The translations under genes were made by a program, and so were the position numbers. Source: Bacteroidota bacterium (GTDB taxonomy: Bacteria > Bacteroidota > Bacteroidia > B-17B0 > Aurantibacillaceae). From it: a stretch of 64,000 nucleotides of DNA. The notes under the pieces were generated by a model, which searched no databases, was not told where the DNA came from, and saw nothing but the letters and a program-made list of their open reading frames with translations. Shown in pieces: positions 51,208 through 64,000 of this stretch (its first letter is position 1; every line of letters begins with the position of its first letter). The stretch spans positions 372,001 through 436,000 of the forward strand of contig JAUXZS010000015.1 in NCBI GenBank assembly GCA_030692515.1. Direction: 5' to 3'.

Positions 51208-51322
51208 TTTTTTATAATAATTCCACCAAATTGCTAAAAAAATCTTATTTTTGCCCAGTGTAATTTTTAATTTAACATTTAGATTTATCTAAAATTTATA
51301 ATTTAAAATTCATCATTTCTAA

Positions 51323-51362
51323 GGTCCTGTGGCCGTCCCGATAGCTATCGGGAGGCTAGGCT
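51323..51362 (+). pseudogene. tRNA-Cys 5' fragment interrupted by a palindrome
   Basis: GGTCCTGTGGCCG (51323-51335) equals the first 13 bases of the tRNA-Cys gene. Then comes the palindrome TCCCGATAGCTATCGGGA (51336-51353), then GGCTAGGCT matching the tRNA again (51354-51362). The palindrome replaces AGT of the tRNA. The rest of the tRNA is absent. Confidence 0.75.
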
Positions 51363-51387
51363 GAGAAAAAACTCATAAAAATAAAAA

Positions 51388-51461
51388 GGTCCTGTGGCCG
51401 AGTGGCTAGGCTCAGCTCTGCAAAAGCTGCTACAGCGGTTCGAATCCGCTCGGGACCTCCA
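51388..51461 (+). tRNA. tRNA-Cys (anticodon GCA)
   Basis: A complete 74-base cloverleaf with encoded CCA: the acceptor stem GGTCCTG pairs with CGGGACC, the D-arm GCC...GGC is present, the anticodon stem CAGCT/AGCTG has loop CTGCAAA, and the T-arm AGCGG-TTCGAAT-CCGCT follows. The anticodon is GCA and the base before CCA is T, as expected for cysteine. The last 15 bases before the end form the left attachment site of the integrated element. Confidence 0.95.
51445..51459. repeat. attL (15-bp direct repeat)
   Basis: TCCGCTCGGGACCTC at the 3' end of tRNA-Cys. It is identical to 63670-63684. The element supplies the following CA that completes the encoded CCA. Confidence 0.9.
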
Positions 51462-51592
51462 CGTTACTTAAGTGTAACAAACGTTTGCCTCGGAACGTTA
51501 GTAAAATAAGGGTTTTTACCGAAACCCTTATTTTACAACTTCCAAATTTTAGTGTGTTTTTAGGCTTTTGCTTCACTATTTATTCACTAAAT

Positions 51593-52774
51593 ATGAAGCA
51601 GACATCAATCAATCTACCGAAAGTAATTTACCGGACAGATCAACCAAAAAAGGACGGATCTAATTCATTCTACCTTCAATTGCATCACAACAAAGTGAAA
51701 AAATTTATTTCACTCAAAGTGTCGTGCACTAAGGATTTTTACGATGAGAAAAACAATCGCATCAAAAAATCTCATCCCTTCAGTGAGCAATACAATTTGA
51801 TAATTGAAACCCAACTTTTTAAAGCTTCAAAAATTATTCTCGATGCAAGAATAAAAGATGAACCGATCACTATTAATCAGTTTCTAGAAAAATACCTAGG
51901 CAAAGCTTCAGATAATAACAAGATGAATTTTTACTCCTTTGTAGAAAGCGAAATTGAGGTTGAAAAAAAAAGAGCAAACAAGGCGCCACTCACAATAAAA
52001 AAATACACCTATCAACTCAATAAATTGAAAGAGTTCAGGAGTAAATTGGAGTTTAACGACATCACTCCTTCATTCTTAGCTGATTTTGAAGAACACATGA
52101 GGGTTACGCTAGGAAACGAAAAAGGAGGGTCTAACAACACTTTAAAAATGATCAGGAAGTTTGTTTACGTTGCAATCAAAAAAGACTTGACAAGTAATAA
52201 CGCCTTTAAAGATTTTCAAATAAAAGAGGATTCAACTGGTGATATAAAATTCTTAACGCTAGTTGAGTTTCAGAAGATAAAGGAGTATTATAAAACACTC
52301 TTGTCTGGACACAAACACCATCTTACCTTAAAGTCTTTCATATTTTCTTGTTGCACCGGGTTGAGATATGGAGACGGGAAAAAATTTAAGTTGAATGACA
52401 TAAATAGTAATTGCATTCTTATAAAAACTCAAAAGACAAAAAAAGCGGTGTCTATTCCTTTAATACCCCTGGCTAAGGAAATGCTTAACTATGATCTAGA
52501 TGCTGGTTTACCGAACCTAAAAACACCATGTGTCCAAACATGTAATACAGCATTGAAGGAGATTGCTGCGGTTTGCAAAATTGATAAACCAATTACAACA
52601 CACTATGCAAGACACACTTTTGGTTGTATTGCTTTAAACAATGGTATATCAAGGGAAACCGTACAAGCAATTTATGGGCATTCAACAAGCAAACAAACGG
52701 ATCATTACGCTATTTTAAATAACGATACCAAAGTCGCTGAAATGGAAAAGTTGGCCGCAGTGATGACACTCTAA
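51593..52774 (+). CDS. Tyrosine integrase of the tRNA-Cys element
   Basis: Start set at 51593 (MKQTSINLPKVIYRTDQPKK); the longer frame from 51485 begins in the attachment region and has no sense there. The 393-residue product has an arm-binding-type start, a SAM-like core-binding domain (NKMNFYSFVESEIE, LTIKKYTYQLNKLKEF) and a catalytic domain: R in TGLRYGD, K in IKTQKTKKAVSIPL, HYARHTF and GHSTSKQTDHYA with the tyrosine. All catalytic residues are visible. It lies right beside attL, as expected for the site-specific integrase. Confidence 0.9.
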   Translation: MKQTSINLPKVIYRTDQPKKDGSNSFYLQLHHNKVKKFISLKVSCTKDFYDEKNNRIKKSHPFSEQYNLIIETQLFKASKIILDARIKDEPITINQFLEKYLGKASDNNKMNFYSFVESEIEVEKKRANKAPLTIKKYTYQLNKLKEFRSKLEFNDITPSFLADFEEHMRVTLGNEKGGSNNTLKMIRKFVYVAIKKDLTSNNAFKDFQIKEDSTGDIKFLTLVEFQKIKEYYKTLLSGHKHHLTLKSFIFSCCTGLRYGDGKKFKLNDINSNCILIKTQKTKKAVSIPLIPLAKEMLNYDLDAGLPNLKTPCVQTCNTALKEIAAVCKIDKPITTHYARHTFGCIALNNGISRETVQAIYGHSTSKQTDHYAILNNDTKVAEMEKLAAVMTL

Positions 52775-53077
52775 CGTAAGTCAGATTAAATGAAAATTGA
52801 ATTTAGTAGTTTGAGCAACGTTGATGTTTAATTATTTGCAACGCTCCCTGCAACGGTTCAGCAACTATAACGTTGCAATGGGTAAAACTACCATTGCAAT
52901 AAAACACAAAACATTGATTTTACTGGTTTTTTTGATGTACAACGGTTAAAAATCGTTACATTTTCACTGGTTTCAAAACACAAACATAACCTTATTTAAA
53001 TAAGCAGCAACGTGAAAATTGCCGTGAAACTTTGCAATGAACAATGCTTAAATTAAACTTAACGAGAATAAGTAAAA
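52775..53077. other. Repeat-rich non-coding region after the integrase
   Basis: About 300 bases with no gene. It has many copies of GCAACG or its complement (52815, 52839, 52850 and others). A perfect inverted pair, TTGCAATGG (52873-52881) and CCATTGCAA (52891-52899), is also present. These may be integrase arm sites or a terminator region between convergent genes. Confidence 0.55.
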
Positions 53078-53644
53078 TTATTTCTTCTTGAGGTGTTTTT
53101 CGATGCCGGGATAGCTTATCTTTTTGCCATTTACCTTCATGAAGCTTTCGATTTCATCCTTTGGAACATATTTTAAAATTGTTTCTCTAAGCTTTTGATC
53201 ATCGGAAATAGAATTTACTTTTTCTATTAATAACTCGTGTTTGAATCTTAATTCATCAATTATGTCTGATATTTTATCTTCAGCTTCGCGATAATTCTTC
53301 AGAGCAAAAGTTTTATTGTGTACAGCATTAAAGAACCTCCATGTTTCGGTGCCATTTGCAATAGCGCAATTAACAAGCCCTAAATATGAAGCCATTATTC
53401 TCGCCATCCGATTATATTCCTCAATACTCACACTGTTCTTTAACTCTTCGTCTGATTTTAGAAAGTAGGACGGAGTAGTTCCCAAGTTTTTTGCAATCAA
53501 TTCGATTGTTTCAAGCTTGGTTGAATTGTTTTTTAAGGCATTATGTAGTCCGATCTCAGAAAGTCCAATCATTTTGGCAAAATCCTTTATGGAAACATCC
53601 TTTTCCTTTAAAATTTCTTTTAGTCTTTTTGAAAAATATATCAT
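53078..53644 (-). CDS. XRE-family repressor (CI-like)
   Basis: A 188-residue protein: residues 5-65 are an XRE helix-turn-helix (LKEILKEKDVSIKDFAKMIGLSEIGLHNALKNNSTKLETIELIAK). A helical C-terminal part (KISDIIDELRFKHELLIEKVNSIS) probably mediates oligomerisation. It is divergent from the small Cro-like gene at 53777 across 132 bases that include an AATTATG/CATAATT inverted repeat, which is the layout of a lysogeny switch. Confidence 0.8.
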   Translation of the reverse strand: MIYFSKRLKEILKEKDVSIKDFAKMIGLSEIGLHNALKNNSTKLETIELIAKNLGTTPSYFLKSDEELKNSVSIEEYNRMARIMASYLGLVNCAIANGTETWRFFNAVHNKTFALKNYREAEDKISDIIDELRFKHELLIEKVNSISDDQKLRETILKYVPKDEIESFMKVNGKKISYPGIEKHLKKK

Positions 53645-53700
53645 TTGAAAATCAGATTGTTAGGTTAAAATGGTTTTTATCGGTGTTAAAAACGAATTTT

Positions 53701-53721
53701 AATTATGTTTAAATCATAATT
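53701..53721. promoter_or_regulatory. Candidate operator between divergent CI/Cro-like genes
   Basis: AATTATG (53701-53707) and CATAATT (53715-53721) are a perfect inverted repeat around TTTAAAT. A further related half-site, TTATGAT, follows at about 53724. The position between divergent regulator genes is typical of an operator. Confidence 0.6.
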
Positions 53722-53776
53722 AGTTATGATATTTGTATAATTAAAACCTCTAAACGATACAAATATAATCAAAATT

Positions 53777-53989
53777 ATGGAAAATGTAAACACCCAAAAC
53801 CCAGTAAAAAAAATCATTGAAACCCATGCAAAATATGGCTTTGTCCCTTCAAAGGAGTTTTATCAAAAAGTTCAAATTAATAGCAAAAGGTGGTCCCTTT
53901 TATTGCATGGTAAAAAACCTGTAACAGTTGTAGAATTAAAAGCAATCTGTTTGTTTTTTAATGCCAACATAAACGAATATACATCCTAG
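53777..53989 (+). CDS. Small Cro-like HTH protein
   Basis: A 70-residue protein (VKKIIETHAKYGFVPSKEFYQKVQI, RWSLLLHGKKPVTVVELKAICLFFNANINEYT) that fits a short HTH domain with a recognition helix around residues 33-50. It is divergent from the CI-like gene, hence the Cro-like reading. Role inferred from position. Confidence 0.65.
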   Translation: MENVNTQNPVKKIIETHAKYGFVPSKEFYQKVQINSKRWSLLLHGKKPVTVVELKAICLFFNANINEYTS

Positions 53990-54011
53990 TCAATCTAAAA
54001 CTCTTAGTTAA

Positions 54012-54287
54012 ATGGAAACACACGAACAAGTAGAACAGCTTCAGCAAGATGTTGCAGCGTTGAAAACAGAAGTAAACGAGCTTAAAGAAATCGTAAAAGG
54101 TAGTGTATCTGAGAAAATGTTTACGGTTGCGCAAGCTGCTGTAAAACTTGGCTTAAAGCCTTCCGGTGTTAATTGGCACATTAGGAAAAACGCTCTGAAA
54201 GCTTCAGGTAAGCGATACAAGAAAATTAAAGAAAGTGACCTTAACCAATTTATAGAATTAAATCGCAAACCCGAAGCAAGAGCTTAA
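54012..54287 (+). CDS. Coiled-coil/HTH excisionase candidate
   Basis: A 91-residue protein. A coiled coil (VEQLQQDVAALKTEVNELKEIV) precedes a winged helix (KMFTVAQAAVKLGLKPSGVNWHIRKNALKASGKRYKKIKESDLNQFI). Small HTH proteins of this layout next to recombinases act as excision factors. It lies 22 bases after the Cro-like gene. Direct evidence for excision is lacking. Confidence 0.65.
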   Translation: METHEQVEQLQQDVAALKTEVNELKEIVKGSVSEKMFTVAQAAVKLGLKPSGVNWHIRKNALKASGKRYKKIKESDLNQFIELNRKPEARA

Positions 54288-54350
54288 ATGACACACACAA
54301 AAGGCAAACAAAGTATTTCAAATCCTATCGGTAAATAGGTAAACGAAAAA

Positions 54351-54373
54351 CGCCAACGGTTGCAACGTTGGCG
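54351..54373. repeat. Perfect inverted repeat CGCCAACG/CGTTGGCG
   Basis: Eight-base arms at 54351-54358 and 54366-54373 surround GTTGCAA. The stretch has no T run and lies 32 bases before the recombinase start, so a protein-binding site is more likely than a terminator. Confidence 0.6.
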
Positions 54374-54405
54374 CTAATTAGTAACAGTAATAAAAATTAA
54401 TTGAC

Positions 54406-55767
54406 ATGACAAAGATAACAAAAAACCACATTACCTATTCATTCATTTTTTACCACTCATTAAAAAAAATGAGATTCGATGGCAAGGCTCCTATTTATGG
54501 AAGGCTTACCGTATTTGGGATAAGAAACGAATTTTCAACTTCAATATATCTAGAACCCTGCTCATACAAAGGGAAAGAAATCATCTCACATAACGATACT
54601 GATTTGAACTTTATTATTCAATTATTTGAAGTGCTAAAAACAGATTGCAACATTGTACTTGAAAAGTATGCTTCTGAATGCAAAGAGCCTGGGGATTTCA
54701 TTAATAAGGCAGTTCCTGAACTAAAAGAAATTGCGACAAGGTGTTTTGATGCACAAAAAGAACAGCAAAGCAAGGTCATGAAAACCATTCACGAAAAGAA
54801 AAAACTTAATCGTAGGGCTGAAAAAATGAGATCATTAGGAAGTTTTAGAGAAATTTCTGAAGAATATCTCGAAAAGAAAAAACACATGATTGATATTGAT
54901 TTTTGTTTTAAAACGTGGAAACGAAAAGAGAAGGCGATAAACATTGTTCTTGAATTCATTAAAGCAAAATTTAAACGAAATGATTTTTTTGTTTCAGATA
55001 TAAAAGAATCCTTCTTAAATGATTTTCAACAATATTGTAAAGCTAATCTAAAATGGGGGCAGTCTCATTACAGACGAACAGTTATAATCTTAAAGGCTAT
55101 TATTAATTACGCAGTAGTTTCAGATTATTCAGCGAAAAATTATTTGGCTTTTGTAAAAATAAAACGTGGCGATAAAAAAGGTGATATAAAGCACTTAAGT
55201 GTTGAACAGCTTCGCATATTACTGAATATTAAATTGAGTAGTCACAGTCATAACTTTGTTCGAGATGTTTTTTTGTTTCAGGTATTTACCGGATTGAGTT
55301 ATATAGATCTATACAACTTTTCAATAGATAATATTCATTGCAAATTGGATGGAACAAAATATATAGTTGTGGCACGACAAAAAACCGGTGTAAATTCAAT
55401 ATTGCCTTTGCTTCCCGAAGCCGAAAAAATCATTCAAAAGTATTCAGATCTAAATCATAGGGTTGATAATGGAATAAAAAACCCGGGCGTTCTTCCTGTA
55501 TATACAAATCAAGTTATGAATAGAATTCTGAAGGAGATAGCAGTAGTATCTAATTTGCCAAGAGAACTACTTACTACACACACTGCTCGTAAAACATTTG
55601 CCACTCTAATAATATCAAACACAAATATTAGTATGGAAACAGTTAGTCGCATGATTGGTCATTCAGAACAACGCACGACTGCTAAGTTTTATGCTCAGGT
55701 AAATTCAGGACGAATTTTCAATGAAATGAAAGGCTTCTCATTTGATAACCTTTTAAACCAAAATTAG
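54406..55767 (+). CDS. IntDOT-like tyrosine recombinase
   Basis: A 453-residue protein with an N-terminal arm-binding-like domain (FYHSLKKMRFDGKAPIYGRL), a SAM-like core-binding part (FKTWKRKEKAINIVLEFIK) and a C-terminal catalytic domain. HTARKTFAT gives the HxxR, GHSEQRTTAKFYAQV the second histidine and tyrosine. The usual first arginine in TGLR is serine here (FTGLSYIDLYNF), as in IntDOT of CTnDOT, where that position is also a serine. It is distinct from the element's integrase and is followed 2 bases later by a degenerate recombinase. Confidence 0.85.
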   Translation: MTKITKNHITYSFIFYHSLKKMRFDGKAPIYGRLTVFGIRNEFSTSIYLEPCSYKGKEIISHNDTDLNFIIQLFEVLKTDCNIVLEKYASECKEPGDFINKAVPELKEIATRCFDAQKEQQSKVMKTIHEKKKLNRRAEKMRSLGSFREISEEYLEKKKHMIDIDFCFKTWKRKEKAINIVLEFIKAKFKRNDFFVSDIKESFLNDFQQYCKANLKWGQSHYRRTVIILKAIINYAVVSDYSAKNYLAFVKIKRGDKKGDIKHLSVEQLRILLNIKLSSHSHNFVRDVFLFQVFTGLSYIDLYNFSIDNIHCKLDGTKYIVVARQKTGVNSILPLLPEAEKIIQKYSDLNHRVDNGIKNPGVLPVYTNQVMNRILKEIAVVSNLPRELLTTHTARKTFATLIISNTNISMETVSRMIGHSEQRTTAKFYAQVNSGRIFNEMKGFSFDNLLNQN

Positions 55768-55769
55768 CT

Positions 55770-56324
55770 ATGAGTGGTTTAACCGAAAATGAACTGGATA
55801 GATTTTTACTAAAATGTAAAAACACCAAAGGCCAAGATAAAAAAAACGCTCTGAAGGCGTTCATTATACGCTGCTATACTGGGCTAACACTTAAACAGGT
55901 GTTGTCGCTTACATACGGTGATATCCAAGATAATCATATATTAAAAATAGAGCGTAGCAACTTGGAATTAATTTGTAAAGAAATAAGCAATGAGCTAAAA
56001 GAATTAATTGGATCCGGCCCGAGTGAATCCAAAATAATATATCCTATTAGCGAAAAAACAATTAATGGGGCCATTTTGGAAATTCGATCTGAAATAGGTA
56101 TACAAAGGTATATTACTAACTACCACGCTAAACCCACCTACATTAATTTTGCAACAAACTTAAATGATGATTTTTCATTACCTATTTATCAGCCTTCAGA
56201 TAACTTGATACTAACGTGTAGGCGTTGTGAGATATTAACGCCACACACATTGAAGAACATTAATAAAAACATCGAAAAAATAGAATACCGTTGTAATTAT
56301 TGCGATGAACATCGGTCATTATAA
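55770..56324 (+). CDS. Degenerate tyrosine recombinase with C-terminal zinc ribbon
   Basis: A 184-residue protein. Residues 25-55 (FIIRCYTGLTLKQVLSLTYGDI) copy the first conserved block of the tyrosine recombinase catalytic domain but lack the arginine. The HxxR box is HAKP (NYHAKPTYINFATNL) and no tyrosine nucleophile follows. A CRRC...CNYC pair (LTCRRCEI, YRCNYCDE) forms a zinc ribbon at the end. It starts 2 bases after the IntDOT-like gene. It may be a non-catalytic partner of that recombinase; the partner role is inference. Confidence 0.7.
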   Translation: MSGLTENELDRFLLKCKNTKGQDKKNALKAFIIRCYTGLTLKQVLSLTYGDIQDNHILKIERSNLELICKEISNELKELIGSGPSESKIIYPISEKTINGAILEIRSEIGIQRYITNYHAKPTYINFATNLNDDFSLPIYQPSDNLILTCRRCEILTPHTLKNINKNIEKIEYRCNYCDEHRSL

Positions 56325-56345
56325 ATTCAAATAAAAACTAAAACC

Positions 56346-56678
56346 ATGAAAACAACAGAAACAACAAACAAAATTAGCAACGTGTTAAATGCAGTAGTTA
56401 ATATGAATGATTTAGCTGGCAATGAATTTTTAAAGTCTGATATCGACGCTTTATTCTTATCATTCCAAATGAGTAAATATTGTAATGAGATTACTCCTGG
56501 CGATCGTGAAAGAATAACCCTCATGTATTTAAACATTAAAAAGCTTGCTGAAGCTTCAAGCGGTTTGAAGTCTGAGGATTTTGACAAGTCATTTCCTTTA
56601 AACATTAGCAAGTATTTAATTGAAAAGGATCTGTTGGATGATTACATGATTTATTGTAAATCAGACCAGGATTCCTAA
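56346..56678 (+). CDS. Hypothetical helical protein
   Basis: A 110-residue, mostly helical protein (ISNVLNAVVNMNDLAGNEFLKSDIDALFLSFQMSKY, ITLMYLNIKKLAEASSG). No motif is recognised. It starts 21 bases after the degenerate recombinase and precedes the primase-helicase gene, so it probably belongs to the same transcript. Function unknown. Confidence 0.55.
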   Translation: MKTTETTNKISNVLNAVVNMNDLAGNEFLKSDIDALFLSFQMSKYCNEITPGDRERITLMYLNIKKLAEASSGLKSEDFDKSFPLNISKYLIEKDLLDDYMIYCKSDQDS

Positions 56679-56757
56679 TAATTAATAATTGTTTTTAACC
56701 GGACATGCCACCAAGCGAAGGTGAATAAATGATTTAAGCACTCAAATACCCTTAATA

Positions 56758-59346
56758 ATGATAAAATATACTTTTGAAAAAAGCCCAAAACCTAAAGGCA
56801 AGTGTCCAAAATGCAATCAACATAAGAAGTTTCGATATTATGAGGGTTTACCTCGTGAGTTTGGAAAGTGTGATCGTGAAAGTGAATGCCAATACCATAA
56901 TAAACCAGATGCTGAAGCGTTAAAAAATTTAGGTGTAGATACAAACCTAGGGTTAACAAGTCAAGTAAAAATTGAATTGAAAACGGTTTTTCCTAGTGAT
57001 AATGATTTGAAATGCTTGAATAATTTAAATTCACCTTTCCATACATTTTGTTTTGATAAACTGAAAATTACAAAAGAACACTTACAAAAATGGAAAGTTG
57101 GATCTGAAGGACAGGTAACGAAATTTATTTATTCATTGCCAAGTGGTAAAAATATCAACGTTATAACAATTCATTATCAAATAAGTAGTGATGAAAAAAA
57201 TTGTAAGCGTATTAAAGCGAAACCTCCATATTCTTTAAAACCGAATAAAGGCGAGAAATACGAGTTGTGTTTGTTTGGTGAACATCTATTGTCAAACAAA
57301 ATAATTTGTCTTGTAGAGAGCGAAAAAACAGCCGTTATTGCAAGTTTTGTTTACCCTGAATTTGATTGGATAGCTACTGGTGGGGCAAATAAGCTTACAG
57401 ACGATAAAATTTCTGCGCTTTTCAACAAAGAAGTTTATTATTTAAATGATGCAGATAAGGCAGGAAAAGAAAACAGCACCATTAAAAAGTTAATCGCATA
57501 TAAACTTAACTATAAAATTATTGATTTGTTTCCAGATCGTAACGATGGTTATGATTTAGCGGATGCAATTATTGATGGAAATAAGCCGGAAATTAAACCG
57601 GTCGAAAAGATAAAAAGCGAAAATGAAATTGAAACAGAATGTTTTGATAAATATGGTTTTTTTGTAAGGAATAATGAGTATTATATTAAGCAACAAATCA
57701 AACATTATACTAAGGATCTAAAAATTTCAAATTTTACAATGAAGTGGATTTATAGGCTAAATGATGAAAGCGATAATATTCCAATGTTATTTGAGTTAAT
57801 TAAGGAGGATAAATCAACTATGTTACTTGAAATTACAAGTAAGGATTTATTAACGTCAACAAATTTCAGTGCGATTGTTTTGAAGGGTGGTTTTAATTAC
57901 AACGGAACAACTTTTGTCTTTAAAAATATTATTGAAAGCCTTTATGATGAGAGTAAAGAAGCAATTTACTTAAGTACATTAGGACAAAACCTTGAGAATG
58001 ATTTTTATTCTTTTTTTAATGGCGTTTTAAAAATCAATGGTGAATATAAAATCTGTGATGAACATGGTGTTGTTGAACTCGATAATAAATATTTTTATTT
58101 ACCAAGTGGTAAAAAGGGAAATGAAAATAACGTAGATTTTGTTGATGATAGAAAATTCAAGTTTACGCCCGGGACACTTACTTTAAGTTTGTTCGTCGAA
58201 AAAATTTATAATATATATGAGATCAATGGCTTAATTGGCTTATGTTATACAATAGCAACAATACACAGAGATATTATTTTTTCTGAAACAAAGTTTTTTC
58301 CTTTTTTGTTTTTATACGGTGGAAAAGGATCCGGTAAGTCGACTTATATTAATTTCTTTATGAATTTTTTCGGAGATCCTCAACCGGAAACTACTGAAAA
58401 TAGTACAGATAAAGCAATTGAAAGAAAATTTGCTCAAATCAACAATAACTTGCAATACATTAAAGAGTTTAATCCAACCTTTGAAGATAAAATAAAAGAT
58501 ATTTTAAAAAATGCTTACGATGGTGTAGGTTATTCCCGGGCGCAAGTTTCACAAAACAATAAAACTAAAACATCAATTGTTCGTTCAGGTTTAGCTATTG
58601 ATGGAAATTACTTTCCTACAAAAGATGATGCTTTATTTTCGAGATTAATATTTATGCTTTGGCAACCAACATTTTCTGACAAAACAAAGGAAGATACACA
58701 AGATCTTCAGGACCTTTTTAAAGCAGGTAATGGTTTAATATTCTCCGATATATACAAACAAAGAGAGGTATATAAAGATGGATTTAGCAAGCTTTACAGG
58801 CAAACAATAATTGAGCTAAAAACTTTGTGCCGGAATAAAAAGATAAATTTCAGTGAGCGTGAAATAAGCCATATTGCTTTGATGGCTGTTGTTTTTAAAT
58901 TATCATTGAAAGAGATCCTTCCAAGTGATCTTGCTTATACAATGTTTGTTGATTTTTTAATAAAGGGCGCTCAAAAACAAACTCAAATAACGCAAAGTAT
59001 TGACGATGTAAACAAGTTTCTTGAAGCTTTGAATACTTTACACCAAAGATCTATTTTAATGGAGCAAAAACACTTTGTGAGAGAGCAGAGCGTAGGATTT
59101 GATTATTTGTATATCAATTTTAATTTATGCCAATTGGAGTATGCCAAGTATATTAAGGAAACGGGTGATGCATTTAATATTTCAAAAGAAGGATTAAAGC
59201 AAAAATTAGAGTTTAGTGCTTCTAAAAACTATCCTTATACCAAACCTAACGAGTTATATTTTCAAAAGAAATTTATGGGTGTAAACCAACGCTGTTTTGT
59301 CCTAGAAGTTGAACCGTGGACTTTTGATTTACTTGGTTTACAATAG
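56758..59346 (+). CDS. Element primase-helicase (Zn finger, TOPRIM, P-loop ATPase)
   Basis: An 862-residue protein. The start holds a zinc-binding finger (GKCPKCNQHKKF, GKCDRESECQYH). A TOPRIM domain comes next (ICLVESEKTAVIASF with the glutamate; YLNDADKAG with the aspartate pair). A C-terminal ATPase domain has Walker A FLYGGKGSGKST (about residues 520-531) followed by a superfamily-3-like region. This is the layout of plasmid/phage primase-helicases, and N-terminal parts resemble Bacteroidota DUF6371. It sits directly before the GGTAACA repeat array, consistent with origin-linked replication. Confidence 0.8.
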   Translation: MIKYTFEKSPKPKGKCPKCNQHKKFRYYEGLPREFGKCDRESECQYHNKPDAEALKNLGVDTNLGLTSQVKIELKTVFPSDNDLKCLNNLNSPFHTFCFDKLKITKEHLQKWKVGSEGQVTKFIYSLPSGKNINVITIHYQISSDEKNCKRIKAKPPYSLKPNKGEKYELCLFGEHLLSNKIICLVESEKTAVIASFVYPEFDWIATGGANKLTDDKISALFNKEVYYLNDADKAGKENSTIKKLIAYKLNYKIIDLFPDRNDGYDLADAIIDGNKPEIKPVEKIKSENEIETECFDKYGFFVRNNEYYIKQQIKHYTKDLKISNFTMKWIYRLNDESDNIPMLFELIKEDKSTMLLEITSKDLLTSTNFSAIVLKGGFNYNGTTFVFKNIIESLYDESKEAIYLSTLGQNLENDFYSFFNGVLKINGEYKICDEHGVVELDNKYFYLPSGKKGNENNVDFVDDRKFKFTPGTLTLSLFVEKIYNIYEINGLIGLCYTIATIHRDIIFSETKFFPFLFLYGGKGSGKSTYINFFMNFFGDPQPETTENSTDKAIERKFAQINNNLQYIKEFNPTFEDKIKDILKNAYDGVGYSRAQVSQNNKTKTSIVRSGLAIDGNYFPTKDDALFSRLIFMLWQPTFSDKTKEDTQDLQDLFKAGNGLIFSDIYKQREVYKDGFSKLYRQTIIELKTLCRNKKINFSEREISHIALMAVVFKLSLKEILPSDLAYTMFVDFLIKGAQKQTQITQSIDDVNKFLEALNTLHQRSILMEQKHFVREQSVGFDYLYINFNLCQLEYAKYIKETGDAFNISKEGLKQKLEFSASKNYPYTKPNELYFQKKFMGVNQRCFVLEVEPWTFDLLGLQ

Positions 59347-59392
59347 TTTTTAAAAATGATTTTCAACTGTACTTTATTTTTTGTTTTTTCTC

Positions 59393-59724
59393 TGTTACTT
59401 TGTTACTTTTTTTATTTTTTCCTTTATTTACGGCACATTAAAGCTTTTTTTGCGGTAACAAACGGTAACAAAATGCTTAAAAAGGTAACAAAAAGGTTAA
59501 AAAAGTAACAGAAAATTGAAAATTTCAAAAAATCGATAAAAAAAGTCGTTTTCTGTTACCATAGTGAGAGTAGTAACGCAGCTAATTTTTAAAAAACTTT
59601 CCTTTATTCATGGCGGTAACAGCATTTGTTAAAATTAGACCTTCTGTTACCGTGTTTGTTACCGTTCAATGTCTTTAAAATCAAATATTTAAGCCTTAAA
59701 AATCGATTCGGTAACAAGGTAACA
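59393..59724. repeat. Iteron-like GGTAACA array, candidate replication origin
   Basis: Nine exact copies of GGTAACA or its complement occur in 330 bases. The direct copies begin at 59454, 59464, 59484, 59615, 59710 and 59718, and the inverted ones at 59554, 59645 and 59657. Near copies begin at 59393, 59401 and 59504. Four start 10 or 20 bases apart (59454, 59464, 59484, 59504), so they lie on one face of the helix. The stretch 59347-59785 is otherwise AT-rich and gene-free, right after the primase-helicase gene. Confidence 0.75.
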
Positions 59725-59785
59725 GGAAAAAAATGGGTTTTCAGTATAGAAATGAAAATACGATCTATTTAATTAAATTTACTCT

Positions 59786-60106
59786 ATGGGATTATATGAC
59801 TTCAGATCAATTTATTTGCCTTATTGCTTACAGAAGCAAAAAGATGGTGGTTATCTTGTTTTAAACAGAAACTACAAGCCAGTTGGCTTTAATACGCAAG
59901 AACATATAAAATATGAAGACTTCCCCGTTGCAACAAAATTCCCCGGCATAAATAAAAAAACCGCAACACTATTATCTATTAATGCTTCAGATGACGTTAA
60001 AGAAATATTCTTATATGATGATGCCACAAACCCAATACGAAACAAAAAGAACATGGATTCATACCTGGAGAAAGTAGAAAGGTTGGCAAAGCTTAAAACA
60101 AAATAA
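59786..60106 (+). CDS. Small conserved element protein
   Basis: A 106-residue protein (MGLYDFRSIYLPYCLQKQKD, YLVLNRNYKPVGFNTQEHIKYEDFPVATKF) with an SH3-like pattern in its first 60 residues and a helical end. Short proteins of this 'L-P-Y-C-L-x-x-x-x-x-G-x-Y-x-x-x-N-R-x-Y-K-P' type occur in many bacterial mobile elements and have unknown function. It follows the iteron array and precedes a 270-base gene-free stretch. Confidence 0.6.
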   Translation: MGLYDFRSIYLPYCLQKQKDGGYLVLNRNYKPVGFNTQEHIKYEDFPVATKFPGINKKTATLLSINASDDVKEIFLYDDATNPIRNKKNMDSYLEKVERLAKLKTK

Positions 60107-60336
60107 GGATAACAAGATGTTCAACAAAAGTTAATTTTAATTTCAACGTTTGTTGCAACGAATATGTTGATTTCAATAATAGTTTTGTTGCAATAACTGA
60201 AACTCAAAATAAATTCAAATTTGATTTTTAATGATTTATTTGAACTGAAAATAAATGTAATTCTATTCAACTTAGGCTCAAACCCTTGTAAACACAAGCC
60301 CTTCATAATCATTCAGTACACTATTTTGTGATAGTA

Positions 60337-60362
60337 AATTTGATTTATATATAAATCAAATT
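60337..60362 (+). promoter_or_regulatory. 26-bp perfect palindrome at the promoter of the late-type gene
   Basis: Two halves AATTTGATTTATA and TATAAATCAAATT meet without a spacer. The TAnnTTTG box TAAATTTG (60335-60342) overlaps its left end. The ATG of the next gene is 14 bases after it. A dimeric repressor here would block transcription; a strong hairpin in the leader is another option. Confidence 0.7.
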
Positions 60363-60376
60363 AAAAAAAACAAAAA

Positions 60377-61630
60377 ATGGAAGGTATCCCTTTACAATTC
60401 TTAAACGGTGTAAATACCGGAGCGGCCGGACTCGGAAAAGAGTTCGACACACTCGAAACAACATTAAGTGGAATAAACGACATGGAAGGCTTAGGCTTCA
60501 CACATTTTAGAAGAGCGTTACATCAACATGTTAGAAACACTCGCAACAAAATTCAATCAACGCCTAATTCAGTTGAGGCCGTTTATGATCCAATTGAACT
60601 TGGAAGAATGTACGATGAATTGGATCAAGCCTTTGCCGGTGATGATGAATTATTAATGGGCGTATTAGAAAAACTTGCTGTTAGGGAACATTCTGCTTTA
60701 AGAAAAAGGTTTCCAAACTGTGAGAACGCAATACACAGACATGACGATCATTTGTATGGCGCTGTTTTTGGCGATCTTGACGATAAAATGCTAGATGCAT
60801 ATAGCGGCCTTGGTAAGAAAGATCGATCAGCTAAAAAGAGAGCAAGGTCCGAAAAGAAAGGTAAGTCAGGCCCAATGACAAAAATAAAAAATGCAGTTAT
60901 TAAGGCTAAAAGCGCCACGAAAAACGCTGGTGCTTCAACAAAAAAAGTATTGAAGAAAATAGGTAAAGCTGTTGTTAAACATAATCCGGTTGCTATTTCT
61001 GCTCGTTTAAGTTTTTTAGCAGCAATGCGCACAAACTTCGGTAAGATCGCTGAAAAAATGTACTGGGTTTACATGGGTAAAGAATTTGCATTGAGTAAAG
61101 GTATTTCTCTTGAATTTTACAACAATTGTGTAAAGCTTCACGAAAAGGCTTCACATATTTTTTTAAGTGTTTTAAAAGGTGATGAGAGTGCATTAAAAAA
61201 AGCCGTGTTAAATGGAAGGGCAGCAAAGAAAATAAAATCACAACTTGAAAAACGCGGAATGAGTGGCGTTGAATTATTAATGGGTTTATCCGGTGACGGG
61301 TTGGGCGTAACGGCTGCTGAAGTAAATGCGGCTTCATCTCTTTTAAAGCCCCTAGTAGAGATGGTAGCAAAATTTTTTAAAGAAAAACGTAAACGAGCTG
61401 AGGAAGAAGCCGAAGAAGAAAATGATGATTCAGTCGAAGCAGCAAACAATGTGAATGATGAAGAAGAAAGTTCAGGTGACAGCGAAACCACTACTTCAAA
61501 GAAATCTGGTTCTTCAAAGAAGTCCGGTTCGGGTGGTAAAACCGTAATGGTTGTAGGAGGAATTGGAATACTCGCTACAGCTTTGATCGTAATGAGCAGA
61601 AATAATAAAAAATCTGAAGTAGCTAAGTAA
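60377..61630 (+). CDS. Large late-type element protein with C-terminal membrane helix
   Basis: A 417-residue protein. Residues 1-150 are helical (IPLQFLNGVNTGAAGLGKEFDTLETTL and onwards). Residues about 155-200 are very rich in K and A. Residues about 200-330 hold the segment KHNPVAISARLSFLAAMRTNFG and more helices. An acidic/serine low-complexity linker follows, and one final membrane helix (VMVVGGIGILATALIVM). A family of this layout is common in Bacteroidota elements with no known role; the K/A-rich part and terminal membrane anchor suggest a surface or particle protein. It has its own promoter and terminator. Confidence 0.65.
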   Translation: MEGIPLQFLNGVNTGAAGLGKEFDTLETTLSGINDMEGLGFTHFRRALHQHVRNTRNKIQSTPNSVEAVYDPIELGRMYDELDQAFAGDDELLMGVLEKLAVREHSALRKRFPNCENAIHRHDDHLYGAVFGDLDDKMLDAYSGLGKKDRSAKKRARSEKKGKSGPMTKIKNAVIKAKSATKNAGASTKKVLKKIGKAVVKHNPVAISARLSFLAAMRTNFGKIAEKMYWVYMGKEFALSKGISLEFYNNCVKLHEKASHIFLSVLKGDESALKKAVLNGRAAKKIKSQLEKRGMSGVELLMGLSGDGLGVTAAEVNAASSLLKPLVEMVAKFFKEKRKRAEEEAEEENDDSVEAANNVNDEEESSGDSETTTSKKSGSSKKSGSGGKTVMVVGGIGILATALIVMSRNNKKSEVAK

Positions 61631-61650
61631 TTTGCCTTACTTAGTGCATG

Positions 61651-61686
61651 AAAAGCGTCTAAACTCATGGTTTTAGGCGCTTTTTT
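61651..61686 (+). terminator. Terminator of the late-type gene
   Basis: AAAAGCGTCTAAA pairs with TTTAGGCGCTTTT (one G-T pair) and is followed by T. It lies 21 bases after the stop at 61630. The 370 bases that follow hold no gene but several GTTGCAAC-like strings. Confidence 0.85.
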
Positions 61687-62056
61687 GTTTACATAGGCCG
61701 TTGCAGCGTATTTGTTGATCCAATAGCAACGGTGTTGTTTTAAAGCAGTTGCAACAACAAAAACTACATGTTTTAATTGTCATTTACCCAAGGTCAATGA
61801 CTCATTAATCCAATGAATAAAAAAGCCCAGATGGTTCTAGGCTCTAATTTCATTGAAGTGTTACCTACCAGGCGATAGACTATCTATCATTTGCTTTGTT
61901 TTTTTTAAATCTAGGGTTTTCCTTTAATTTTACTTTATTAACACTTTATTAACAAAATTACAAACTTTGGGATTTTAAAAACAAATAAGAAATTACTGAT
62001 AATCAATTACTTAAAATCATTTTTATAAAGTTAGGGATGTTGGAAGCAAATAAGAT

Positions 62057-63508
62057 TTAAGCCCAATACGGAACGTATGAGGCAAATTTTTTGGAACTAT
62101 TTTCCGGATCAGATGATTTAATCAAACCAGACTCAATGGTATCCGCAATGATTTTTGAGGCGGAAGAAACATTGTTCTTTGAAATATTAAATCTTTTCCT
62201 GACCGATTGATTATTAACCGGCTGATTACTTATATAATTAAGCGCAGTATGTTGATAGCAAGCGCGGACCCTATCTTCAAGAGTCATTCTAGATAAAGGA
62301 ATTGGTGCGTACATAATTACTCTAGTATAATTATCCCCTTTGATAAACTTTGGGGCCGGCAATTGATATGTTTCAATTGCATGAATAGCCCTATCAATAC
62401 CACTACCTCGCTCTTCACAAATTTTAAGCCTGCGCATTAAAGAAGCAAGTTTCTCGTTACGAGATTTAGGAGCAGTATCAATAAATCTATTTGTTTCAAC
62501 TAAAGGCACACCTGGGTTTGTTATTTCAATTCTATCTGTAAAAATTTCAATAAGAACACCAGTACCGGTTTCTGAAAAATCTTGATGAATTAAGGCATTA
62601 GCAACAAATTCGCGAATGGCTACTTCCGGATAAACTTTTACCTGTTTTCTTAACGCGTTTTCAATTACCTCATTCGAAGAAAGTTGATCCATAATATAAA
62701 CAACCAATCCCTCGAACCCTGAAGCATAACCACGTTTTCCGACTTGTTCTTTTAAAGCATTAATTCTACTTGTTTCTTTATAGACAATTACCCTAATAGT
62801 TTTTCGTTTGAGGTCTATAAAACTATCTATATCGCGTGTAAATAAAATGGCACCAAGATTTGTAACATTCCAAAATTCATTTGACTTGACAATTAATCCT
62901 TCTGAAGCAAGTGCGAGAAGTATATTCACTTTGGTATCTGGGAGCCTTAATTCAAGCATCCTAAAATAACTATCGTAGTCAAGCAACTTAACAACATCGT
63001 CTGAAGAAATATTGAACGCAGTAATTTGCGATTCAAAATCGATTCCTGATGAAATTGAAATAAGAAATTTAATTTCTTGGGCAGATAGTTTCACGGTTTG
63101 GCCGGCACTTCTTTTATAACTATAATGAAGATCTTTTCCTCTTAAATGTACAGGCTTATCATTTACCTCATGAATATAAATAATGAGAACTGGATTACCT
63201 CTAAATTCAATAACAGTATGATCAATAGAAAGCGCGGTGGATAAATTATTACGTGCAATATTACCTAGTTTTTGGACGATAACATCAATAGCGTTTTTTT
63301 CTAACGGTGCTGGAGACCCATCATTATTAATTCCATACGCGAGATAACCACCTTCCTGATGATTAGCAAATGCGCAAAGATGCTGTGCTAATCTATCTGT
63401 ATTGTCAGATAAGTCACTTTTCCAATCGATTTCATTCAATTCCTGAGGAATTGGATCCATGCTCTTAGAAAGCCATAGTTTAGCATTATCAATCCAACTA
63501 GTTAACAT
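62057..63508 (-). CDS. Schlafen AlbA_2-type ATP/nucleic-acid-binding regulator
   Basis: A 483-residue protein. The N-terminal third is the Schlafen AlbA_2 domain (ELNEIDWKSDLSDNTDRLAQHLCAFANHQEGGYLAYGIN, DKPVHLRGKDLHYSYKRSAGQTVKLS). A helical middle and a HATPase-like stretch follow (AIREFVANALIHQDFSETGTGVLIEIF, GSGIDRAIHAIETYQLP), and a winged-helix end (VRKRFNISKNNVSSASKIIADTIESG). Such proteins are often labelled RecG-like or transcriptional regulators and recur in element cargo and defence sets. It is the last gene before attR, with the opposite strand to the rest of the element. Confidence 0.8.
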   Translation of the reverse strand: MLTSWIDNAKLWLSKSMDPIPQELNEIDWKSDLSDNTDRLAQHLCAFANHQEGGYLAYGINNDGSPAPLEKNAIDVIVQKLGNIARNNLSTALSIDHTVIEFRGNPVLIIYIHEVNDKPVHLRGKDLHYSYKRSAGQTVKLSAQEIKFLISISSGIDFESQITAFNISSDDVVKLLDYDSYFRMLELRLPDTKVNILLALASEGLIVKSNEFWNVTNLGAILFTRDIDSFIDLKRKTIRVIVYKETSRINALKEQVGKRGYASGFEGLVVYIMDQLSSNEVIENALRKQVKVYPEVAIREFVANALIHQDFSETGTGVLIEIFTDRIEITNPGVPLVETNRFIDTAPKSRNEKLASLMRRLKICEERGSGIDRAIHAIETYQLPAPKFIKGDNYTRVIMYAPIPLSRMTLEDRVRACYQHTALNYISNQPVNNQSVRKRFNISKNNVSSASKIIADTIESGLIKSSDPENSSKKFASYVPYWA

Positions 63509-63669
63509 GATTCAAAATTACTAAAATTAGGATGAAATTGTTAGAGGAATATGTTTAGTCTAAAATGAGTATATTTGTTTAGAGAAGTAAAGGTGATAAA
63601 ACTTCACTATTATTTAAGCAAATCAGTAAAAACACTGTAATAACGAGTCTTGTAGAGGGTTTAAAAAAG

Positions 63670-63684
63670 TCCGCTCGGGACCTC
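63670..63684. repeat. attR (15-bp direct repeat)
   Basis: TCCGCTCGGGACCTC, identical to the end of tRNA-Cys at 51445-51459. It is followed by TG rather than CA, so the ancestral tRNA gene probably lacked an encoded CCA. The rest of 63509-63813 holds no gene. Confidence 0.9.
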
Positions 63685-63686
63685 TG

Positions 63687-63719
63687 AAAACCCTTTGTGT
63701 TTTGCGCAAAGGGTTTTTT
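63687..63719 (+). terminator. Displaced terminator of tRNA-Cys
   Basis: AAAACCCTTTG pairs with CAAAGGGTTTT and is followed by more T. It begins 3 bases after attR, where the terminator of the tRNA gene would have lain before integration. Confidence 0.85.
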
Positions 63720-63813
63720 GTTTATAGACTTTTAAATATAGTCTCTGGATAGATTTGAACTTTAAGACTAACATCACTCTAATTTAGTCAATAATTTATC
63801 CTTAAATTTATTT

Positions 63814-64000
63814 ATGGTTTCAAAACAACTACTGGTAATTATTCTTTTTGTTTTATTTTTCGCGAATATTCATGCTCAAAGTATTTTTGAGGCAGACTCT
63901 ATTCGCAAACTAATTAAAGCCGACAAAGAAGATACAAATAAAGTAAACCATTTAAATACACTCGTTGATGATTTGCAATTTGTTTGGGCAGTTAGTGAGC
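63814..64000 (+). CDS. Secreted protein (partial)
   Basis: The frame opens with ATG at 63814 and runs off the window. The first 62 residues show a signal peptide (MVSKQLLVIILFVLFFANIHAQ), then SIFEADSIRKLIKADKEDTNKVNHLNTLV, which resembles the start of tetratricopeptide sensor proteins (kinases or cyclases) of Bacteroidota. Only the export signal can be taken as certain. Confidence 0.6.
   Translation, partial: MVSKQLLVIILFVLFFANIHAQSIFEADSIRKLIKADKEDTNKVNHLNTLVDDLQFVWAVSE

Follow-up and report, generated by a model that had tools for sequence, protein, structure and literature searches.

We have identified, in an integrated element of a Bacteroidota genome, a 184-codon gene whose product is predicted to be a catalytically dead tyrosine recombinase domain with a four-cysteine tail, lying directly downstream of a gene (rec1) for a tyrosine recombinase with an active-type set of residues. 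Our preferred reading, to which we give even odds, is that the 184-aa gene is a real, lineage-specific, non-catalytic accessory made from a tyrosine-recombinase catalytic domain. The locus displays a conserved two-recombinase plan (int1 and rec1) and allows otherwise matching elements to be compared in which the active-type recombinase has, or does not have, a dead partner. Several recombinases per operon are already known in mobile elements, where the role of a degenerate partner is usually open.

The element lies within the window, the whole 64,000-nt stretch of DNA analyzed, which belongs to a genome of 4.33 Mb in 68 contigs. Its integration target is a tRNA-Cys gene (gca; 51388..51461, + strand), the 3' part of which serves as the 15-bp attL core (51445..51459, +). 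This core recurs as an exact direct repeat, attR, at 63670..63684 (+), giving a core-to-core distance of 12225 bp and hence an element of about 12.2 kb. The first gene is the element integrase int1 (51593..52774, +), which has Arm-DNA-bind_5, SAM_5 and Phage_integrase domains and Arg I present; together with the att repeats, it supports an earlier, sequence-only reading that the element has a normal integrase of its own. Family searches assigned the next two genes to a Cro/CI-type HTH regulator on the minus strand (53078..53644) and an excisionase-like HTH_17 protein (54012..54287, +). These are followed by rec1 (54406..55767, +; 453 aa), the 184-aa gene (55770..56324, +), which starts 2 nt behind the rec1 stop, a small ORF of 110 aa (56346..56678, +) and a primase-helicase (56758..59346, +) composed of Zn_ribbon_16, DUF6371 and a helicase-like part. 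On its 3' side are a 106-aa ORF, a 417-aa ORF and a minus-strand gene for a 483-aa protein that matches a PHROG named DNA helicase. No capsid or relaxase gene was found among the element genes identified. Relatives of both parts of the DUF6371 primase-helicase occur on seven IMG/VR viral contigs (L108-L114), a hint that this may be a phage- or satellite-like element. Positions 51321-51375, immediately ahead of the intact tRNA, hold a partial duplicate of the tRNA-Cys 5' part, split by the palindrome TCCCGATAGCTATCGGGA.

Judging by its residues, rec1 is an active-type tyrosine recombinase. It matches Phage_integrase and Phage_int_SAM_5 of Pfam above cut-off, and an arm-binding domain, Arm-DNA-bind_5, at 16.9 bits, below the cut-off of 22.6. 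Its catalytic set consists of S298 at Arg I, R324, K326, H392 and R395 (HxxR), H419 and Y429, in agreement with the earlier description of an IntDOT-like recombinase, at exactly these coordinates, that has serine in place of the first arginine and keeps HxxR and the tyrosine. In the IntCTnDOT subgroup, as set out in the part of the source drawn on here, Arg I is replaced by Ser or Ala and the catalytic Arg is relocated downstream (PMC8138268). We compared these positions in 68 aligned recombinases, comprising rec1, int1 and 66 homologues, some of them near-duplicates. Every sequence with Ala or Ser at Arg I (54/54) has an Arg two residues ahead of the beta-hairpin Lys, and in all 14 with Arg at Arg I this relocated Arg is absent. 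On this pattern the serine of rec1 need not cripple the enzyme, R324 taking the place of Arg I.

The 184-aa protein starts at the catalytic-domain boundary and is without the N-terminal domains that clamp DNA. It keeps CYTGL, and the alignment leaves H118 as its sole remaining catalytic residue. T40 stands at Arg I and P121 at Arg II (HAKP for HxxR), and there is neither a second His/Trp nor a Tyr; the Lys column holds S63, with Arg62 adjacent, the exact column being alignment-dependent. With all of these positions lost, the beta-hairpin Lys included, the protein cannot cut DNA, and the earlier description of a dead second gene that retains CYTGL was correct. We regard its kinship with tyrosine recombinases as genuine, even though none of the recombinase models of Pfam, PHROG and NCBIfam matches it; its tblastn and phmmer matches are ordinary integrases. 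Against a profile built from 26 recombinases, from which the dead protein itself was omitted, it scores 56-59 bits in frame, and the remaining frames score close to zero. Many of the 26 rows came from searches that used it as query, so the score is biased in its favour and not fully independent. AlphaFold2 predicted most of residues 1-131 with pLDDT above 90, and values for 134-184 fell below 50. With the predicted structure as query, the 50 PDB matches listed of 165 were all tyrosine recombinases or the related telomere resolvase, the best being XerA (E 2.1e-4), XerH and HP1 integrase, and 2 of the 165 reached E 0.001. The alignment supplied to AlphaFold2 contained recombinases, so the prediction is not independent of sequence homology; residues 1-131 are nevertheless predicted to fold as a tyrosine-recombinase catalytic domain. 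A sequence search of solved structures returned nothing meaningful for the 184-aa protein, only hexokinase at E 0.11, and no description of it was recognized in open-access titles and abstracts on dead recombinase partners or DUF6371.

A protein that represents the catalytic part only could also have arisen if a full recombinase had been split, by programming or by accident, with the rest supplied from another frame or through recombination. We regard this as very improbable: none of the frames of 55700-56800 contains a trace of the lost C-terminal part, and the complete rec1 takes up the space on the N-terminal side.

The tail carries cysteines at 150, 153, 175 and 178 in the arrangement CxxC-x21-CxxC, a motif that probably binds zinc. 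The sequence-only reading had proposed a gained zinc ribbon; the Cys4 motif is there, and the ribbon fold is a motif-based suggestion, given the pLDDT below 50 throughout 134-184. A family search of the tail returned no match. As a control, 200,000 random sequences matching the tail in length were generated from the dinucleotide steps of the element; 4873 of them gave open frames, and the Cys4 pattern appeared in none of these.

In order to collect related elements, the primase was used as a marker, which yielded 5 of 86 other family genomes, 14 genome_contigs loci, several of which coincide with the former, and 7 viral contigs. The plan of int1, regulator, HTH_17, rec1 and primase was found, with the order unchanged, in two siblings, G014 and L096. 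The G014 element (L018/L102) sits at a tRNA-Cys and shares 43% identity in int1, 54% in HTH_17 and 34% in rec1, and the L096 element sits at a tRNA-Arg with 34% in int1, 40% in HTH_17, 34% in rec1 and 54% over the whole length of the primase. Past its catalytic domain, the G014 rec1 (L018 9358-10719) has about 70 residues with no counterpart in the window rec1. Neither full sibling (0/2) contains the dead gene, contrary to the conserved pairing of both recombinases that had been anticipated. The gap between rec1 and primase is 183 nt in G014, and in L096 it holds one ORF that is unlike the dead protein and weakly like the 110-aa ORF (22% identity over 55 aa, E 2e-4 in a single comparison). Because the siblings keep rec1 without the dead gene, rec1 belongs to the plan of the element family, and the dead gene is present in one of three elements. 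Likewise, a set of adjacent recombinase genes of the GInt/RIT/Tn554 operon type is not conserved across the sibling elements.

Wider searches with the dead protein recovered only ordinary integrases of full length. Across the 21 loci L094-L114, the only phmmer match was the int1-like integrase of L096. Non-self matches were found in 2 of 99 genomes of relatives, 14 of 394 of the class and 14 of 394 of the phylum (overlapping sets), and all of these sit in open frames of 303-459 aa, against 191 aa for the dead protein's own frame. Around rec1 homologues, 48 loci gave matches only in frames of 248-465 aa, which are recombinases, and no short gene behind them. Peptide-pattern scans of genome_contigs and viral_contigs returned no relative of the dead protein; a single phage record matched, with a 362-aa integrase, and among plasmids there was one weak match (E 0.2), also an integrase.

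This distribution bears on the main competing explanation, that a piece of a catalytic domain landed behind rec1 through illegitimate recombination, the downstream frame by chance staying open into a Cys-rich stretch. Such a captured, non-functional integrase fragment is a serious contender, which we hold to be somewhat improbable. It would account for the absence of the gene from both full siblings and all genomes searched, for the low identity of the protein to the 26 aligned recombinases (13-23%), and for a tail without coding signal: codon statistics for aa 144-184 show nothing that stands out. For aa 1-143, in contrast, the statistics are +0.15 in frame versus -0.31 and -0.39 in the other frames, and resemble the element's coding genes. 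Against capture stand the predicted intact fold, the improbability of a chance Cys4 motif in the random control, and the rarity of an open frame after neutral decay. In a simulation that started from two ordinary catalytic domains and allowed random substitutions only, an open frame of 150 codons persisted in 10 of 1380 snapshots scoring 46-66 bits; indels would reduce this share further, and a very divergent ancestor would increase it, making the test too strict if the captured domain was already of that kind. The decay simulation and Cys4 control make a random decayed fragment unlikely. The earlier reading had linked such a fragment to absence from every other genome; the gene indeed turned up in none of the other genomes searched, yet frame, fold and Cys4 are better kept than neutral expectation. 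Taken together with the codon statistics, these controls favour, without proving, a maintained gene, here represented by a single copy.

The dead protein is not a duplicate of rec1. In blastp comparisons the 184-aa protein matched int1 at E 0.010 and rec1 not at all, and a sister copy of rec1 was accordingly rejected as its origin, int1 being nearer. In a tree of 72 recombinases, the window rec1 and the L096 rec1 group together (99/90), two recombinases of G459 and G367 join this group (96/85), and the G014 rec1 and L080 join it with weaker support (98/71). The G459 relative is intact and precedes what appear, by eye, to be replication genes, so that rec1 may have arrived with a replication module; no second recombinase lies in the 19.5 kb around it. 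The G367 rec1-like gene (L116 9593-10851) is broken into frames of 118, 63 and 156 aa, with one TGA noted, and another recombinase lies approximately 6 kb away. That all three elements have retained two recombinases points to a task in addition to tRNA integration, for which multimer resolution is our guess.

Given the 2-nt spacing, the 184-aa protein is probably co-translated with rec1, and its most likely role is that of a non-catalytic accessory. Recombinase subunits exchange C-terminal segments, and the retained recombinase fold could contact rec1, for example by accepting an exchanged C-terminal segment, or could contact DNA; it could thereby damp or bias rec1 activity. The analysis shows the sequence and its homology, the lost residues, the genomic position and the absence from siblings, whereas expression, zinc binding, contact with rec1 and any effect on recombination are inferred. 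A more specific proposal is that the dead domain with its zinc-binding tail was recently recruited by one element as a built-in subunit or brake of rec1 that determines in which direction or at which site a second reaction proceeds, such as multimer resolution, separate from tRNA integration; this we consider unlikely. Still less probable, in our view, is a DNA-binding regulator unrelated to recombination, whose domain and Cys4 tail would bind the element's DNA, for instance to control replication or transcription beside the primase, with rec1 a mere neighbour. The 184-aa gene does lie in a same-strand run, preceded by rec1 and followed by the small ORF and primase, and recombinase catalytic domains bind DNA, a family trait on which this proposal draws. 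However, no site for such binding was identified, affinity may be low for this domain alone with the core-binding domain missing, and the sibling elements manage without the dead gene.

The sequence-only reading had further suggested that the recombinase pair may act on a different site, such as an invertible segment; no long inverted repeat was found in 51300-63900. A search of this region for direct and inverted repeats gave only imperfect inverted arms, the longest being 37 nt at 70%. A short inverted repeat with 10-nt arms, one mismatch and a 7-nt spacer (54349..54375, +) lies 30 nt before rec1 and has no second copy in the genome. The G014 sibling also has an inverted repeat, of different sequence, about 30 nt before the rec1 start (L102 7387-7406). 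Other repeats were observed in and around the element. All three siblings, the window element included, share a 36-bp inverted repeat, GTAAAAT.AGG...CCT.ATTTTAC (window 51501-51536, L096 4077-4112, L102 4107-4142), which begins about 40 nt past the tRNA, leaves 55-58 nt to the integrase ATG and shows changes among the three elements that are matched on both arms. Allowing at most one mismatch, this pattern occurs among 395 class genomes only in the genome of the window and in G014, and it was not found in viral_contigs. TTCACTA-type repeats adjoin both att sites (51571-51592 and 63602-63623) and are possible arm-type sites of int1; the left TTCAC repeat pair is also present in both siblings. 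The window contains 6 copies of GTTGCAAC, where 0.81 would be expected, and four of them lie inside the element.

Several known systems resemble parts of this arrangement, as far as the portions of the sources drawn on here describe them. Like IntCTnDOT, rec1 has the relocated Arg, with R324 two residues before K326, and the same catalytic and SAM-like Pfam domains (PMC8138268). The element differs in that rec1 is a second recombinase beside another integrase and its arm-binding domain is sub-cut-off, and in that the 184-aa protein is without most of the catalytic set. Strand-biased circularizing elements have the order intA-CDS2-intB-CDS4 and thus share two recombinases with small uncharacterized proteins between or after them, but both of their recombinases keep R-H-R-Y, and the gene set and hosts are others (PMC9345347). 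Tn554 and RIT elements likewise have tandem recombinases, and in Tn554 (TnpA/TnpB/TnpC) the small accessory TnpC influences orientation; theirs, however, are conserved recombinase sets, and TnpC is not presented as a recombinase domain in the part of the source used (PMC3414803). The family assignments made for the present element did not point to a TnpC-like gene. GInts carry a ginABCD operon of three recombinases and GinD, conserved as a set, in which GinC is degenerate, is missing the first arginine and is often annotated as hypothetical (PMC5385486). Unlike GinC, the degenerate gene of the window is not conserved with its partner and bears a Cys4 tail. The likeness lies in an operon that groups several recombinase genes and includes a degenerate one, and GinC without its first arginine provides a precedent for a degenerate recombinase in a recombinase operon (PMC5385486).
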